From Gynurincola endophyticus (GTDB lineage Bacteria; Bacteroidota; Bacteroidia; Chitinophagales; Chitinophagaceae): 64,000 bases of DNA. The number at the start of each line of letters is the position of its first letter. The first letter of the stretch is position 1. The notes beneath the pieces were generated by a model. That model was given only the letters and a program-made list of their open reading frames with translations, was not told the DNA's origin and did not search any database. Position numbers and translations under genes: made by a program. The DNA is taken from positions 372,001-436,000 of the forward strand of contig NZ_RCWL01000003.1 of the NCBI RefSeq assembly GCF_003991195.1, read 5' to 3'. Below are positions 47,374 to 56,651 of this stretch, one piece after another.

Positions 47374-50277
47374 TTATTTTTCAATTGCTTTATAAATAGC
47401 TTCATGCACTTTAGGCCTAACCGACATTCTCAGGAATTTACCGGTATCCGCACTGTTTACACGGTTTGATAAAAAAATGAAGATTAAATCTTTTTCAGGG
47501 TCTATCCAGATACAGGTTCCTGTGAAACCCGTATGGCCGAAAGTACTTAAACTGGCAGATGCTGTAGGGTAAGCTTCCGCTCTGGTTGCATTATCTTTTT
47601 CAGGTTTATCAAACCCTAAACCTCGTCTGCTGATCTGACTATGATAATCTGTAAAATAGTCTACTGTAGATTTTCTGAAAAAGCGTGTACCGTTCAGTTC
47701 GCCACCATTTAATAATACCTGTGCTAACACGGCGAGGTCTCCTGCATTACTGAAAAGGCCTGCATGTCCTGCTATACCGCCGAACATAGCGGCACCAGGG
47801 TCATGAACATATCCCTGAATTAACTGTCCTCTGAACATTTTTTCAGCTTCTGTAGGTGCTATATAGCTTTTAGGAAAACGCTTTAACGGATTAAAACCGG
47901 TGCTCTTCATTCCCAACGGTTCGTAAAAAGTTTTGACAGTATAATCGTTCAAACTCATTCCGGTAATAGCTTCTACTATTAACCCCAGAAAAATAAAATC
48001 ATTGTCAGAGTAAATATATTTTTTATCTTTTTCGAGTGGGCTTTGCAGAATACGTGTATACATTGTATCGATGAAATCTTTTCTCAGATACAATTGATCA
48101 GCTACCTGTATAGAACCGTCCTGCGGTTTTTGTGAAAAGTAAGGAACGGTTGCCAGTTTTGTTTTCGGATCAATGGTTTCCTGATAAAAAGGTATGAAAG
48201 ATTTAAGTCTGGCTTCGTGTAAAAGCACATCCCACAATTTTAAATTTGCTTTGTCAGACCCTTTCGTCCAGGCCAGGTAATCGCCTAATGTTTTTTGTAA
48301 ATCGAGTTTACCTTCATCGTATAATTTCATCACTGCTACTGTGGTGGCCATCACTTTTGTAATGGAAGCGAGGTCATATATTGTTTCGGGGTATACCGGA
48401 TCATTACTGATATAACTGGTTTTTCCATATCCTTTTTCAAAAATGATTTTACCGTTTTTAGCTACCAGTACAACCCCTCCCGGAATGGCTTCTTTCTGAA
48501 TTGCATCATGCATAATACTGTCGATCGAATGATTCATCTGAAAAGTATTTATGCCTACTTCAGATGGAATAACCGTTGGAAGGGCGCGCGTGGTAACAAT
48601 GCCATCTCCGGCTTTGAATGAATCACAAGCTGTAATGGGTAAACGGCCGGCAGGGTTAAATCTTCCGAGTAACAGGTCGGCTGCTGCCTGTTGAGTAAGC
48701 GGGTCGTCGTCGTAGCAGGCAATGACGGCAGTTGCACCGCAAAAATTGGATAGTGCATACGGATTGCCAAAGGCCAATGTAATGGTTTTGTGCTGTAGTT
48801 GTAATCCTAACATTAACGACAATGCCGAATGGCTGATACCATAGTTGTTTGCCGGAACACGGCTGTATTGATGCAGGCCGATTACTACTACATCGTATTG
48901 ATCTTTCAGGTATTCTAGCATTGGTTTTACCTTGCTTTGTTCCATTTTATAATCAACAAAGTAGGTATGCGCATTATAATTTTCTCTCATTTTTTGAGCG
49001 AAAACATTTTCAGCCTTTAATCCGATTCCTACATAAGCAACGCGTTTGTTCGGAAGTAGAGGAAAGATGGCCGGGTCATTATTTCGTAAAAGGGTGATCG
49101 CATTTTCAGCAATCAGCCGGCGCATATCATCTATTGAAGCATTTAAATCAGCTGTTAAGTTTTCGGTATTGATGGGTTGATAGTTGTTCAATCCTACCTG
49201 ATATTTTGCATATAAAACACGTTTCACTGCCTGATCAAGCGTTGCCCATTTCAAGCGTTTTTTGCGAATTGCTTTTTTTACTTTTTCAATCGTTAAATCT
49301 ATATCTTCCGGTAAACACAACATATCGTTTCCGGCCACCAAAGCTTCTACCGAACCTTCAGCTTCAGGAAAGTTTTTGGTCAAACCTTTCATCTCTAATC
49401 CATCCGTAACAATAATACCCTGAAAGCCTATTTCTTTTCTCAGTAAATCATTCACTGCTTTTGCTGATGTAGAAGTAGGGCGTTTTACATCTTTGTCAAT
49501 AGAAGGAACGGCCAGGTGGGCAATCATCATCGAACCAACACCGGCTTTAGATAATTCTCTGAAGGGATATAGCTCTAATGCTTCCAGTTCAGGCATTGAT
49601 TTATTAATAACGGGTAAATCGTAGTGAGAATCTACCGAAACATCTCCGTGTCCCGGAAAGTGCTTTGCAGTAGCAATGATGCCGTTATCCTGCATTCCTT
49701 TCATGTATTGAATGCCGTAAGCCGCCACTTTGTATTTATCTTCTCCGAATGACCGGTCGTTGATCACCGGATTCATCGGGTTATTGTTAACATCAATCAC
49801 CGGAGCATAATTAATATGCACGCCCATTCTTTTCAGTTGTTCGGCTACGACGCGCCCATATTCGTATATTAATGAAGGATCCTGAACGGCTCCGAGCATC
49901 ATTTGCCGGGGGAGTGATTTAACACTGTCCATCCGCATTCCTAATCCCCATTCGGCGTCTACGGCAACTATGATAGGCGTTTTTGCAAGGGCCTGCATTT
50001 CGTTTAATAAGTTAGCCTGACGAACCGGATCTCCCTGAAAGAGGCAGATTCCACCGATATTGTACTTGTCAATTGCCCGTCTCACCAGTGAATCCTGAAA
50101 AATTGCAGTACGGTTAGGACCGAGTGAGGATAAGCGCACGACCATTAATTGTCCAATTTTCTGATCATTTGTGAGCGTTTTAAACACACTGTCTACCCAT
50201 CGGGTAGCGGCGGCATCCTGGGCGATTGACGTAGCAGCAGACGCTACAAAAGCAACAATCATCAATAGTTTCTTCAT
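47374..50277 (-). CDS. GH3 (NagZ-like) beta-N-acetylglucosaminidase fused to a serine beta-lactamase-like domain
   Basis: A 967-residue secreted fusion: signal peptide MKKLLMIVAFVASAATSIAQ; GH3 domain about 25-370 with the NagZ motif KHFPGHGDVSVDSH (205-218; acid/base His-Asp) and nucleophile D292 in IIVTDGLEMKG; a GH3 C-terminal domain about 390-560; and a class C beta-lactamase/PBP-like domain about 575-960 with SxxK (SITK, near 638), YSDN (near 757) and HTG (near 912). GH3 of this type releases GlcNAc from peptidoglycan. This architecture recurs in Bacteroidota, and peptidoglycan turnover is the likely role. Own terminator; no partner gene adjacent. Confidence 0.92.
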   Translation of the reverse strand: MKKLLMIVAFVASAATSIAQDAAATRWVDSVFKTLTNDQKIGQLMVVRLSSLGPNRTAIFQDSLVRRAIDKYNIGGICLFQGDPVRQANLLNEMQALAKTPIIVAVDAEWGLGMRMDSVKSLPRQMMLGAVQDPSLIYEYGRVVAEQLKRMGVHINYAPVIDVNNNPMNPVINDRSFGEDKYKVAAYGIQYMKGMQDNGIIATAKHFPGHGDVSVDSHYDLPVINKSMPELEALELYPFRELSKAGVGSMMIAHLAVPSIDKDVKRPTSTSAKAVNDLLRKEIGFQGIIVTDGLEMKGLTKNFPEAEGSVEALVAGNDMLCLPEDIDLTIEKVKKAIRKKRLKWATLDQAVKRVLYAKYQVGLNNYQPINTENLTADLNASIDDMRRLIAENAITLLRNNDPAIFPLLPNKRVAYVGIGLKAENVFAQKMRENYNAHTYFVDYKMEQSKVKPMLEYLKDQYDVVVIGLHQYSRVPANNYGISHSALSLMLGLQLQHKTITLAFGNPYALSNFCGATAVIACYDDDPLTQQAAADLLLGRFNPAGRLPITACDSFKAGDGIVTTRALPTVIPSEVGINTFQMNHSIDSIMHDAIQKEAIPGGVVLVAKNGKIIFEKGYGKTSYISNDPVYPETIYDLASITKVMATTVAVMKLYDEGKLDLQKTLGDYLAWTKGSDKANLKLWDVLLHEARLKSFIPFYQETIDPKTKLATVPYFSQKPQDGSIQVADQLYLRKDFIDTMYTRILQSPLEKDKKYIYSDNDFIFLGLIVEAITGMSLNDYTVKTFYEPLGMKSTGFNPLKRFPKSYIAPTEAEKMFRGQLIQGYVHDPGAAMFGGIAGHAGLFSNAGDLAVLAQVLLNGGELNGTRFFRKSTVDYFTDYHSQISRRGLGFDKPEKDNATRAEAYPTASASLSTFGHTGFTGTCIWIDPEKDLIFIFLSNRVNSADTGKFLRMSVRPKVHEAIYKAIEK

Positions 50278-52462: not shown

Positions 52463-52497
52463 AACCCCGGAGTGAAAACTTCGGGGTTCATTTTTTC
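52463..52497. terminator. terminator between mutL and the second barrel gene
   Basis: Stem AACCCCGGA (52463-52471) / TTCGGGGTT (52480-52488) with one G-U pair, 8-nt loop, T run on plus to 52497; A run on the left serves the minus strand. Confidence 0.75.
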
Positions 52498-52513: not shown

Positions 52514-53359
52514 CTATAGAGAATTGAAACGAAGGCCAACTGTAAATGGAGTTACATCTAAATGATCTTTAAACATACTTTTGGTAGCTACTGCACCATA
52601 CAGTTTCAGGTGGCCCAGGGTTACTTCGCCTACATAAGAGATCTTAACCGGGTTTAAGTTGAAGTCAACTCTGTCTTTTGTTTTTCCACCTGGAGAAGTA
52701 ATGGTTTTTTGTTTTGCAGTGTACAAATAACCTGCTGCAATACCGGCAGAGATTCCGTAGGTTCTGCCGTTCTTTTTAGCAAAATCCCAGTTTAACATTA
52801 CAGGAACGGTTAAGTAGTCGGCACGTAATTTATTTTTGCTATAACCTCTGCTGTTGTCTAATGTAATATGATCGTATGGTTCCTCATTGAATAATACAGG
52901 TTTTTTGAATCTGTAATTATTTGACTCAATACCGATTGCATATTTTAAGTTTAGCTTATGATTAACGATGTTTACTTTTTGAGAAACAATCCACAAGTTA
53001 AAGTTGATAGACTTTCCATCTCTTAAATCTAACCAGTCTTTAGTAGCACCCGGTGCAATACCATTCGTTGGATTTTGTACGCCTGCGCCTGAATAATTTG
53101 TTTGATCACTCCAGTTGCTTATTCCAAGGTCAAATGCAAACCAGGTAGTGGCAATGTTTTTAGGTTTTCTGGGTGTAAAGTCAACCGTAACAATTGTTTT
53201 GTCATTTTTCGTTTGTGGTCCGCCGGTAGAGTCAACCGGAATAGTTCCGTTTGATTTAACAATAATGATATTTCCGATTCTTACCGTATCTGTATTCTGA
53301 GCGTCCATTTGTGATGCGAACAGTACGATTCCCATAAGGAGTAAAATTCCTTTTTTCAT
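52514..53359 (-). CDS. outer-membrane beta-barrel protein, second paralogue
   Basis: A 281-residue secreted protein: signal peptide MKKGILLLMGIVLFASQMDAQ, a short linker with VDSTGGPQ, then alternating strands (FAFDLGISNWSDQTNY, SINFNLWIVSQKVNI, LKYAIGIESNNYRF, LTVPVMLNWDF, YGISAGIAAGYLY, LYGAVATKSMF) and a final strand ending GLRFNSL, the pattern of a small outer-membrane beta-barrel. It is about two-thirds identical by eye to the gene at 53766. The start chosen (53359) matches the paralogue's MKKG start. Its 5' region contains a decayed copy of the anti-sigma gene's 3' end. No specific function known. Confidence 0.8.
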   Translation of the reverse strand: MKKGILLLMGIVLFASQMDAQNTDTVRIGNIIIVKSNGTIPVDSTGGPQTKNDKTIVTVDFTPRKPKNIATTWFAFDLGISNWSDQTNYSGAGVQNPTNGIAPGATKDWLDLRDGKSINFNLWIVSQKVNIVNHKLNLKYAIGIESNNYRFKKPVLFNEEPYDHITLDNSRGYSKNKLRADYLTVPVMLNWDFAKKNGRTYGISAGIAAGYLYTAKQKTITSPGGKTKDRVDFNLNPVKISYVGEVTLGHLKLYGAVATKSMFKDHLDVTPFTVGLRFNSL

Positions 53360-53385
53360 GATCAAAAAATTAATAAGTTAAAAGA

Positions 53386-53480
53386 TTATTTAAAATGAGT
53401 TGATTGCATTGACTTTTGTTAGATCGAAGGTTGAATGTTTCGCGATATACTTTCAGTGTTCGCTCTAACGGTAAAGCTGG
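53386..53480 (-). pseudogene. decayed duplicate of the anti-sigma gene 3' end
   Basis: This stretch aligns with the last approximately 85-90 bp of the anti-sigma gene (54630-54715): shared segments include TTATTTAAAATGA (53386-53398), TTTGTTAG, ATTTCGCG/TTTCGCG and ACTTTCA in the same order. The frame ends in the same HFK-stop but carries an internal stop (TAA) before it. It shows that the tandem duplication that made the second barrel gene carried along the end of the anti-sigma gene, which then decayed. Beyond about 53480 similarity fades. Confidence 0.65.
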
Positions 53481-53713
53481 TGTAAATAAAATCTTCAGAG
53501 TTGTGATTTGTTTTCTGAAGCGTTATTTATTGTTATACGCGTACGGAGATTGAAATGTTACAGATGACCTGAAGTTTTTTTATTTTTTTTGAGCAGTTTA
53601 ATCAGAGAGATTTTTATAGAGAAGCAGTGTTGATGAAACCATTCAGAAATTGAGGAGTTAAGAAGAATATACTTTAATTCTTCATGGGTAAAAAATAACA
53701 TCTTTAAAATGAA
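53481..53713. other. intergenic region upstream of the second barrel gene
   Basis: No gene seen. It contains a T-run-rich low-complexity stretch at about 53575-53591 and an ACCATTCAGAAATT repeat copy at about 53637, followed by an AGAATATACTTTAATTCTT near-palindrome. I find no convincing promoter for the second barrel gene. Confidence 0.4.
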
Positions 53714-53741
53714 AAACCCTGAAGCGTATTCTTCAGGGTTT
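53714..53741 (-). terminator. terminator of the sigma/anti-sigma/barrel operon
   Basis: 11-bp perfect stem AAACCCTGAAG (53714-53724) / CTTCAGGGTTT (53731-53741), loop of 6 nt, T-rich on the minus strand. It lies 25 nt past the first barrel gene stop. Confidence 0.8.
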
Positions 53742-53765
53742 CATCTTTTCAATTTTATATATGAA

Positions 53766-54608
53766 TTATAGAGAGCTGAATCGAAGTCCAACATTGAACG
53801 GAGTCAGGTCAAGATTGTTTTTGAACATACTTTTGGTAGCCATTGATCCGTACAATTGAATATGCCCGAGATTGATTTCACCTACATAAGAAATTTTGAA
53901 AGGATTCAGATTGAAGTCAACTCTGTCTTTTTGTTTACCATTTTGAGTGGTAATCGTTTTTTGTTTTGCCGTATATAAATATCCTGCGGAGATACCGGCA
54001 GATAAACCGAAGTTTTTACCTTTTTTGTTAGAGAAATTCCAGTTTAACATTACAGGAACTGTCAGGTAATCTGCACGCAATTTATTTTTGCTGTAACTGT
54101 TGGTATTGTCCATCACCAGGTGATCATAAGGTTCTTCGTTGAAGATAACCGGACGTTTGAATCTATAGTTGTTTGACTCAATACCGATCGCATATTTTAA
54201 GTTCAGGTGGTGGTTGATAATATTTACTTTCTGAGAAACAACCCATAAGTTAAAGTTGATCGACTTACCTGCTCTCAGATCTAACCAGTTGTCAGTAGCA
54301 CCCGGAGCGATACCAGTGGTTGGGTCTTGAACGCCGGCACTGGCGTAGTCGGTTTTGTCTGTCCAGTTGTTGAAACCTAAATCAAACGTAAACCAGTTGG
54401 TGGTAATGTTTTTATTCTTCTTTTTGGTTATTTCAATCACATTGCTTTCGCCACCTGATTGAGGGCCGCCGGTAGAATCAACAGGAATGCTACCTTTAGA
54501 TTTTTTTACGATAATGATATTTCCGATTCTTAACGTGTCTGCATCCTGCGCTTTTAGCTGAATAGTACACATAGCAATCCCCATCAGGAGAAAAAGTCCT
54601 TTTTTCAT
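53766..54608 (-). CDS. outer-membrane beta-barrel protein, first paralogue
   Basis: A 280-residue protein with a signal peptide (MKKGLFLLMGIAMCTIQLKAQ) and the same barrel-like architecture as the gene at 52514, ending in a C-terminal strand (GLRFSSL). It begins 21 nt after the anti-sigma stop and is thus the third gene of an operon with the ECF sigma factor, so it is the likely target or an envelope component of that regulatory system. The N-terminal linker (SKGSIPVDSTGGPQSGGES) is variable between the two. Similar to PorT-like or OMP_b-brl proteins in general layout only. Confidence 0.82.
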   Translation of the reverse strand: MKKGLFLLMGIAMCTIQLKAQDADTLRIGNIIIVKKSKGSIPVDSTGGPQSGGESNVIEITKKKNKNITTNWFTFDLGFNNWTDKTDYASAGVQDPTTGIAPGATDNWLDLRAGKSINFNLWVVSQKVNIINHHLNLKYAIGIESNNYRFKRPVIFNEEPYDHLVMDNTNSYSKNKLRADYLTVPVMLNWNFSNKKGKNFGLSAGISAGYLYTAKQKTITTQNGKQKDRVDFNLNPFKISYVGEINLGHIQLYGSMATKSMFKNNLDLTPFNVGLRFSSL

Positions 54609-54629
54609 GATTATAATAAATTAATAAGA

Positions 54630-55769
54630 TTATTTAAAATGAATAGAGTAGCTGCTGTTTTTGTTAGTACGATTCGATTTGAAAATTTCGCGCTTAACTT
54701 TCATTAGCAATCCTCTTAGCGGAATCGGGTCATCAGAGATTTCGTTATGTGCCGGCGAAAGATCATTGCTGGCCATAAGGCTTTTTAAATCTTCTAATTG
54801 TTTGTCTGCCAAAAGAGCTTCAGAATCGGTCTTAACATCAAAGCTGGCGTAAAATGACTCTTCAGTAGCTGTTGTTTGTGTTGGGGGTAGCTCCGAAGTG
54901 TTATTTGTATGTTCTACGTTTGTTGGTTCTGAAATGTTACTCTCGGTTGAAATATTTTTTTCAGAATTCTTTTCTTCAGTGGTAGCTTTTTCATTTACAC
55001 CAGGTAACTGAGATGCTTTTACAGAAGAAGATTCAATTGCAGGTTGATTTTTTGCCGGCTTTTCAGCACTTGTTTTATTATTAACTGCTATTTCTGTAGA
55101 AGGTTTTGAATCATCATTTGTAACAGCCGGTCTCGAATCCTGTTGAACAGGAGTAACCGGTTGGTTTTGATTTACCGATGAATGTGTTGTTCTGATGTCT
55201 TCCATTACTTCAGAAGGTTTCATCGGGCTAAATATATTCACCGTAATAAATAATGCCACAGCTGCTGCAATACTTAACTCCATCCAACGGGCCCTGAATA
55301 TAGAAACCGATTTGCCGGTAGATTGATATAAAGCAGCTTTATTCGGATACTCGATTTTTTCCTGTGGTAATACCGTTAAACGGTATTGCTGATGTAATTG
55401 CTGAGCATCCGTGTGTTGTGTTAAATAGGCTTCAAGAGATGTCTTTTCTTCCTTATTCAACTCATTATCTATTGAAAGGATAATTTTTTCTTCTACATTC
55501 TGATCATTAATAATGCCATCGAACTTATATAAGTTCATTTTATTAGGTAAAACAATCTCTTCCGCGGCAGGTAAGGTTAATACCGCTTCTTTCAATTGAT
55601 TCATTTCCTCCTGTAGCTCCGGATGAGCAAACAGGAATGCTTCAACTGCGGCCTGACCGGCTTCGTTCAGCTCACGGTCTACATACATCAGAAAATACAT
55701 TTCGTAATTATCTGATGTAATGATCGGAGGTTGTTGATCAGAAGATGATATGTTATTGTTATATGACAT
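54630..55769 (-). CDS. membrane anti-sigma factor with duplicated cytoplasmic domain
   Basis: A 379-residue bitopic protein. The cytoplasmic part has two related units: residues about 29-85 (YVDRELNE...PNKMNLY) and 99-142 (SIDNELNKE...YPNKAALY), each with an xDxELN start, an EAxLxxH middle and a PNKxxLY end. A membrane helix lies at about 153-171. The periplasmic part, about 175-330, is low-complexity (S, T, E, N, Q, P rich), and a folded-looking C-terminus follows. It overlaps the sigma gene by 11 nt. No zinc-binding HxxxCxxC motif is visible. Anti-sigma function is inferred from position and layout. Confidence 0.82.
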   Translation of the reverse strand: MSYNNNISSSDQQPPIITSDNYEMYFLMYVDRELNEAGQAAVEAFLFAHPELQEEMNQLKEAVLTLPAAEEIVLPNKMNLYKFDGIINDQNVEEKIILSIDNELNKEEKTSLEAYLTQHTDAQQLHQQYRLTVLPQEKIEYPNKAALYQSTGKSVSIFRARWMELSIAAAVALFITVNIFSPMKPSEVMEDIRTTHSSVNQNQPVTPVQQDSRPAVTNDDSKPSTEIAVNNKTSAEKPAKNQPAIESSSVKASQLPGVNEKATTEEKNSEKNISTESNISEPTNVEHTNNTSELPPTQTTATEESFYASFDVKTDSEALLADKQLEDLKSLMASNDLSPAHNEISDDPIPLRGLLMKVKREIFKSNRTNKNSSYSIHFK

Positions 55770-56244
55770 TAGCAGGATCTACTAAAAAGTTTTTTAATTG
55801 TAATCTGGCTCTGTGTAAATATACTTTCACCTGACTTTCACTTAACCCGGTAATTTTCCCGATCTCTTCGTATGAATATCCTTCATAATCTTTCAGCATT
55901 ACCAGCGACCGTTGGGTTTCGCTTAATCGCTGTAGGGCGATCTGAAGAACTTCTTTTAATTGATTGACCGAGCTGTGTGTTTGCCTGAGGTCTTCCGAAA
56001 AGTCATCCTTCAACTGTACGCGCTTCGATTTCCGTATATGATCGATCATTAAGTTATAAGCAACTGTAAATAAATAGCTTTTGGCTGTTGCTGACTCTAC
56101 CTGATCTTTATGAATCCAGACTTTTTCAAATGCCGACTGAACAATGTCCTGCGCATCCGATTCATGCCGAAGATTCTTCAGAATGAAGCGGTACACATTA
56201 TCCGCATAATTGGTGATTAATTCGTTATATTCTTGAACAGTCAT
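55759..56244 (-). CDS. ECF RNA polymerase sigma factor
   Basis: A 161-residue ECF sigma factor. Region 2 (about residues 8-75) includes DIVQSAFEKVWIHK and SYLFTVAYNLMIDHIRK; region 4 (about 103-155) has LSETQRSLVMLKDYEGYSYEEIGKITGLSESQVKVYLHRARLQLK with the helix-turn-helix. It overlaps the membrane anti-sigma gene downstream. Upstream lies an AAC-N16-CGT promoter of the type ECF factors recognise, implying autoregulation. The inducing signal is probably envelope-related, since a barrel gene is co-transcribed. Confidence 0.95.
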   Translation of the reverse strand: MTVQEYNELITNYADNVYRFILKNLRHESDAQDIVQSAFEKVWIHKDQVESATAKSYLFTVAYNLMIDHIRKSKRVQLKDDFSEDLRQTHSSVNQLKEVLQIALQRLSETQRSLVMLKDYEGYSYEEIGKITGLSESQVKVYLHRARLQLKNFLVDPANVI

Positions 56245-56273
56245 TTTTGAACTTCTAACAGTATATATAGATT

Positions 56274-56299
56274 ATACGAAGGTGGCTAAAAAAAGTTAC
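56274..56299 (-). promoter_or_regulatory. ECF-type autoregulatory promoter
   Basis: On the minus strand: GTAAC (56299-56295), exactly 16 nt, then CGTAT (56278-56274). The AAC-N16-CGT spacing is the classical ECF sigma pattern. It lies 30 nt upstream of the sigma factor start codon. Confidence 0.65.
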
Positions 56300-56310
56300 A
56301 GTGAAAACAA

Positions 56311-56359: not shown

Positions 56360-56542
56360 TTATTTCAAATCTAAAAAAAGTCCCCTGGTTAAGATATCGG
56401 GTAAACTGGTATTGGAGCCATTCTCAATAGAATAATCATTTTCTTTCATCATCGGTAAAACTTTCGTGCAGAAATACATCATGTAGCTAAAGAAAACCAC
56501 GATGATTAACAGCGACCCTTTGATGAAATTCTTCTTGTTCAT
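56360..56542 (-). CDS. small single-TM protein
   Basis: A 60-residue protein: basic start MNKKNFIKGS, one hydrophobic helix (about residues 10-27), then a polar tail ending LTRGLFLDLK. No family recognised. Its own terminator downstream, 17 nt past the stop, argues that it is transcribed. It is divergent from kbl and upstream of the sigma-factor gene in the same direction, but the terminator separates them. It might be an unlinked small membrane protein. Confidence 0.5.
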   Translation of the reverse strand: MNKKNFIKGSLLIIVVFFSYMMYFCTKVLPMMKENDYSIENGSNTSLPDILTRGLFLDLK

Positions 56543-56651
56543 AAAAATGCTTTATTATTAAGTTAGACGCTTAATTATTCAAAAAGTTACAAGAGCGGTT
56601 AAAAAAAATGCCGAAAGGTTAAAAAAACGGCTGAACTTCAACAATAAATAC

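Follow-up and report, generated by a model that had tools for sequence, protein, structure and literature searches.

A sigma, anti-sigma and outer-membrane barrel operon of Gynurincola endophyticus that resembles a split form of the Bacteroides Dma proteins

How Bacteroidota sense damage to their outer membrane is, to our knowledge, a largely open question. The extracytoplasmic function (ECF) sigma factor systems typical of polysaccharide and iron loci work by FecI/FecR/FecA surface signalling. The Dma (dual membrane-spanning anti-sigma) proteins were described only recently, in gut Bacteroides; the EcfO pair of B. fragilis is related to the Dma/Das systems. In a Dma protein, a single chain encoded next to an ECF21 sigma factor unites an anti-sigma domain, a transmembrane (TM) helix, a disordered tether and a barrel, and loss of the protein frees the sigma factor and raises vesiculation (PMC13088901). 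A similar Phocaeicola pair, M0N98_03760-61, is induced by an envelope-attacking toxin (PMC9308784). Here we describe an operon of Gynurincola endophyticus, located in a 64,000-nucleotide stretch (positions 372001-436000, termed the window) of the 4.5-Mb genome, whose anti-sigma factor and separately encoded barrel look, by analogy, like a split counterpart of the Dma proteins. The interpretation that we favor, and hold to be reasonably probable, is a self-amplifying ECF circuit that probably watches the cell envelope.

The module is read on the minus strand in the order ECF sigma, bitopic anti-sigma, barrel 1, terminator-like hairpin and barrel 2, and comprises the following features:

55759..56244, minus strand: ECF sigma factor, 161 residues (Pfam Sigma70_r2 and Sigma70_r4_2; ortholog in 60/60 neighbourhoods, these being selected by barrel matches)
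54630..55769, minus strand: anti-sigma factor, 379 residues (AlphaFold2 model, place after sigma, conserved N- and C-termini)
53766..54608, minus strand: outer-membrane barrel 1, 280 residues (PF13568, 49.7 bits; AlphaFold2; OmpA/NspA-like fold)
52514..53359, minus strand: outer-membrane barrel 2, 281 residues, paralogue of barrel 1 (PF13568, 37.6 bits; 72% identity)
56271..56300, minus strand: P1, predicted ECF promoter of the operon, TGTAACTTTTTTTAGCCACCTTCGTATAAT (matrix score 24.4; footprint)
54911..54941, minus strand: P2, promoter-like site embedded where the gene encodes the tether, AGTAACATTTCAGAACCAACAAACGTAGAAC (matrix score 15.2)
53532..53562, minus strand: predicted promoter of barrel 2, TGTAACATTTCAATCTCCGTACGCGTATAAC (matrix score 27.6)
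53371..53528, minus strand: degenerate remains of the 3' part of the anti-sigma gene within the leader of barrel 2 (local alignment)
53713..53742, minus strand: terminator-like hairpin after barrel 1 (scores on both strands)

The sigma and anti-sigma reading frames overlap by 11 nucleotides, 21 nucleotides separate the anti-sigma stop from barrel 1, and GTAAC-N16-CGT (56299-56276) lies 31 nucleotides ahead of the sigma ATG. A barrel homologue was found in 138/147 Chitinophagaceae genomes. In 60/60 neighbourhoods of this family, sigma and barrel lie together on the same strand, a figure that speaks of linkage and not of frequency, since the loci were selected via barrel matches; an anti-sigma was recognised between the two in 59/60, and kbl often adjoins the module. 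Further relatives recovered with the barrel profile come from other families of the class, where the order sigma, single-TM anti-sigma, barrel is kept in 19/20 loci, if an unlabelled open reading frame (ORF) of matching size and place is admitted as anti-sigma. An earlier sequence-only reading of this DNA had proposed a sigma gene, an overlapping anti-sigma gene, a barrel, a terminator and a second barrel; every one of these elements is present on the minus strand, and barrels unlinked to sigma in relatives, which would have spoken against such a module, are not what the counts of 60/60 and 19/20 revealed.

The sigma factor contains sigma-70 regions 2 and 4 only (Sigma70_r2 1.5e-12, 47.6 bits; Sigma70_r4_2 1.9e-16, 59.9 bits), and with its 161 residues it agrees with the ECF definition (regions 2 and 4 only, about 160-200 residues); TIGR02937 is above its cut-off, and the best NCBIfam model, NF058625 (GFO_1088/PG0214 family ECF sigma), gives 116 bits, below the 130-bit threshold. 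For the anti-sigma factor, AlphaFold2 predicts two confident three-helix units (residues 22-62 and 92-132), one TM helix (159-180), a disordered tether of some 170 residues (about 183-350; predicted local distance difference test, pLDDT, mostly below 50) and a C-terminal helix (353-365). At its C-terminus a basic helix and, after it, a short strand are conserved, e.g., RGFFRKVTR...DRLLIGGLAIKLK. Both barrels exceed the PF13568 (OMP_b-brl_2) gathering cut-off of 27 bits, with E-values of 5.9e-13 for barrel 1 and 3.1e-9 for barrel 2, and the mature barrels begin near DTIRIGGMIIIKK. Barrel 1 is predicted (AlphaFold2, pLDDT 87.5) to be eight-stranded, with a flexible N-terminus that carries a conserved short hairpin (residues 25-34). 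The nearest solved folds to the model are the membrane domains of OmpA and NspA (Z 13-14; Foldseek best E 4.7e-5), and a PDB sequence search with the barrel gave no match.

The autoregulatory ECF promoter suggested by the sequence-only reading is supported by a phylogenetic footprint, as GTAAC-N15..17-CGT stands upstream of sigma in 58/61 genomes (shuffle mean 0.8) and a weight matrix finds P1 in 54/55 further genomes and in none on the antisense strand, the sigma promoters scoring from 17.5 to 27.6. Outside Chitinophagaceae, GCAACC-N-CGTC or GTAAC-N-CGTC precedes sigma in 8/17 loci (control 1). In the genome-wide motif search that the same reading proposed, the short pattern TGTAAC-N15..17-CGTA did not rise above background (19 matches in the own genome; reversed control 24), therefore only the longer motif informs; this longer form gives sites at a DUF2807 and a Peptidase_S41 gene. 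A scan for sigma-70-type promoters stayed at background level.

Scanned over 147 genomes, the strict motif TGTAACWTT-N13/14-CGTANNAY also matches sites unlinked to the sigma operon, and at 25/40 fetched second-site loci the gene concerned encodes a DUF2807 protein. Starting conversely from DUF2807 homologues, the motif was found upstream on the coding strand in 23/30 and on the other strand in 0. The own-genome site (C1:903184, outside the window) has a matrix score of 27.6, and the protein behind it matches DUF2807 (PF10988; head GIN/Toastrack) with 3.2e-38 and 131.7 bits against a cut-off of 24.2; the own-genome DUF2807 paralogues at L182 and L184 are without the motif. A Peptidase_S41 gene of the own genome (L143:2953-3960; C12 site 295680), with the motif (24.2) located 21 nucleotides ahead of its start, is a possible further regulon member.

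It may be argued that this motif is read mainly by another ECF sigma with overlapping specificity, so that autoregulation would not be exerted by the sigma factor itself. The genome does contain several ECF paralogues (6 matches at E up to 1e-15), and in Flavobacterium psychrophilum ECF sigma factors are regarded as likely to overlap in specificity (PMC9723704). Yet the motif tracks its own sigma, standing at the own operon nearly always, and two comparisons point in the same direction. Genome G046 has a DUF2807 gene but no close ortholog of sigma and barrel, the single case of this kind checked, and there is no motif at that gene, while the five sigma-bearing genomes compared with it all have the DUF2807 motif, three of them having been picked in the knowledge that it was present. 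In a divergent clade the motif is altered jointly at sigma and targets, as the −10 element reads CGATATAC before sigma and before DUF5686, OmpH-like and dehydrogenase genes, which is expected if one sigma reads them all. Reading by another sigma is thus improbable, and we infer that the own sigma reads the P1, P2, barrel 2 and DUF2807 promoters.

Among the clade's putative targets, the OmpH/Skp-like gene behind the CGATATAC form was seen in one relative (L186:775-1389, minus strand). DUF5686 was rejected as a core target, as the motif occurs in 5/30, though three divergent-clade genomes have it. DUF5686 outer-membrane-type genes lie behind the motif at L192, L193, L194 and L173; some other DUF5686 leaders (L420, L423) combine TGTAAC with TATTTTCGT, a possible overlap with a box of the primary sigma.

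The site P2 (54941-54911) places a copy of the motif inside the anti-sigma gene, upstream of barrel 1. In 31/60 Chitinophagaceae anti-sigma genes and in 43/54 from further genomes, GTAAC-N16/17-CGT lies ahead of the barrel, within the stretch that encodes the tether; these counts treat genomes as independent and ignore kinship. Codon-order shuffles gave a mean of 0.6 (at most 4), the antisense strand 0-1 and the N-terminal part none; outside Chitinophagaceae a barrel-proximal site was found in L260 only. One may ask if such sites are merely a by-product of the amino-acid or codon composition of the tether, in which the codons GTA ACN (Val-Thr) and AGT AAC (Ser-Asn) are common, the more so as P2 scores are on the whole below P1 scores. 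This is very improbable, since the shuffles retained identical codon content, two reading frames are in use, and in a duplicated copy described below the reading frame decayed whereas the motif was retained and became stronger. The three controls and the two frames argue for constraint on DNA and not on protein, and P2 would accordingly be a second sigma-dependent promoter that raises barrel output over that of the anti-sigma.

The duplicated copy is found in front of barrel 2, whose leader aligns with the anti-sigma 3' part with a score of 52 (shuffles at most 41.8; other genes 24-31). The homology extends into the promoter, where AGTAACATTTCA...CGTAGAACATACAAATAAC of the anti-sigma gene has its counterpart ahead of barrel 2 in TGTAACATTTCA...CGTATAACAATAAATAAC, and therefore the segment that was duplicated comprised the anti-sigma 3' part together with the barrel. 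It is well supported by this alignment that afterwards the frame decayed by deletions and the promoter moved towards consensus, from 15.2 to 27.6, the latter equal to the best sigma promoter. Barrel 2 thus looks like a retained regulon member with its own promoter. Tandem barrels are also present in the relatives G022 and G118; in each, one of them (G022:C1:1277787-1278587; G118:C1:2440031-2440294) is reported with an in-frame TAA and may be two pieces or a decaying copy.

In relatives, Dma-like fused proteins (anti-sigma, TM helix, tether and barrel) are encoded beside ECF sigma genes at L300, L301, L306, L307, L309-L313, L321, L322 and L324; they belong to several families outside Bacteroidales-type genomes. 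The fused barrel of L301 is in the same Pfam family as that of the module, and barrel profiles of the module and of the fused proteins align (Prob 87.7, E 3.4e-6). By Rosetta-stone reasoning, the separate anti-sigma and barrel therefore probably act together. Another architecture was seen beside ECF sigma genes at L294, L299, L302 and L304, an anti-sigma-like N-terminus followed by a TM helix; the L304 chain continues with CarboxypepD_reg-like and TonB_C domains, and the other three appear alike by eye.

Taken at the level of sequence, the conserved operon, the ECF promoter, the DUF2807 site, the embedded site and the duplication history are well supported. A sensing role of the barrel, which would serve the anti-sigma tail as receptor or anchor, is less certain, and so is envelope damage as the signal. 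In the circuit that we favor, active sigma would yield more barrel than anti-sigma via the promoters described. The anti-sigma tail would cross the periplasm, where its conserved basic helix and final strand would attach it to the barrel or the adjacent outer membrane; envelope damage would alter this contact, upon which the anti-sigma would be released or cleaved and sigma freed, and finally the extra barrel and the DUF2807 protein would restore the envelope and reset the switch. A barrel-strand matrix finds its best anti-sigma match in the last 20 residues in 26/60 cases (5/60 with shuffled tails), a hint that the tail could pair with the N-terminal strand of the barrel. Several points weigh against this proposal: the resemblance of tail and barrel is weak in score, the own-genome P2 score of 15.2 falls below the range of the sigma promoters, the motif could also be recognised by further ECF sigmas of this genome, and the anti-sigma reaches the cut-off of no Pfam anti-sigma model, its matches to Pfam and NCBIfam anti-sigma models being weak (E 0.001-0.06). 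Moreover, hhalign aligns it with the fused proteins at the TM segment only, for which reason we do not assert that the cytoplasmic domains are homologous.

The sequence-only reading had the barrel as output or part of the sensor, and the embedded and duplicated promoters support the former. It is possible, although we would hold it only tentatively, that the barrel is output only, the tail sensing peptidoglycan, lipid, misfolded protein or a protease, and that more barrel strengthens the outer membrane in the manner of OmpA. All the promoter evidence would fit equally, and the fold is that of structural OmpA-like barrels; what suggests joint function instead is the invariant order of sigma, anti-sigma and barrel across the class, together with the fused anti-sigma/barrel chains in relatives. 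A rather unlikely variant is a split dual-membrane anti-sigma that acts as a homeostat of outer-membrane assembly, with a feedback promoter in the DNA that encodes its tether. Active sigma would make more free barrel than anti-sigma, and the extent to which barrel occupies the tail would report how readily the outer membrane takes up new barrels; such a circuit would be conserved in Chitinophagaceae and, minus the promoter in the tether, in the class as a whole. A class-wide split version makes sensing testable, because anti-sigma and barrel can be deleted, overproduced or mutated separately, unlike in fused proteins.

Further features flank the module:

52463..52488, strand undecided: hairpin between barrel 2 and the end of the mutL gene (scored T-rich tail on the plus strand)
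56562..56591, minus strand: further motif copy, TGTAACTTTTTGAATAATTAAGCGTCTAAC (matrix score 22.8)
56360..56542, minus strand: putative 60-residue ORF with one hydrophobic segment, beginning 19 nucleotides past the motif copy

The putative ORF lies between sigma and kbl, with a hairpin 3' of it, and was seen solely in the own genome among the loci fetched; it is a possible small regulon member. The checked neighbours of the module are MutL, RidA-type and glycoside hydrolase family 3/beta-lactamase proteins, the last being a 967-residue fusion of that hydrolase family with a beta-lactamase-family serine hydrolase (47374-50277, minus strand).

Beyond the sequence-only reading, the analysis adds the DUF2807 target, the promoter within the anti-sigma gene, the duplication that gave rise to barrel 2 and the resemblance to Dma, as well as the motif copies ahead of barrel 2 and of the 60-residue ORF. 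The module provides a promoter motif as well as a small predicted regulon that includes an uncharacterised DUF2807 protein, and it presents an unusual case in which a regulatory promoter is apparently kept, in many genera, within the coding sequence of a disordered segment.

With FecI/FecR/FecA the module shares an ECF sigma, a single-pass anti-sigma and an outer-membrane partner, but the partner is a predicted eight-stranded closed-type barrel and not a TonB-dependent receptor; the anti-sigma has no Pfam FecR match and the checked neighbours include no linked TonB-dependent transducer, in line with the difference from such systems noted in the sequence-only reading. RpoE/RseA also pairs an ECF sigma with a bitopic anti-sigma, and some targets here are likewise outer-membrane related (the barrels; the OmpH-like chaperone in one relative). 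However, the anti-sigma has no match to the RseA domain and bears a long disordered tether, and for a barrel within the operon and an embedded promoter we know of no counterpart in the RpoE/RseA response. The predicted distal target connects the module to the Toastrack domain (DUF2807/DUF2154/DUF4097), which is tied to phage-shock-type envelope stress systems (PMC11237479), though here it is a stand-alone signal-peptide protein under an unlinked ECF module, with no PspC or LiaF fusion; in Porphyromonas gingivalis, biofilm and attachment depend on a DUF2807 member (PMC10949514). The likeness to Dma comprises an adjoining ECF sigma, an anti-sigma whose predicted cytoplasmic N-terminal part is followed by a single TM helix and a long disordered tether, a small outer-membrane barrel with which it would work, and a small sigma regulon. 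Neither here nor in the module loci read is there a C-terminal beta-barrel in the same polypeptide, and the module is not a Dma member since its barrel is a separate polypeptide, the amount of which could be set independently of the anti-sigma by way of P2 and barrel 2; the putative anti-sigma domain is doubled, and the predicted target is a DUF2807 protein where that of Dma is NigD1.

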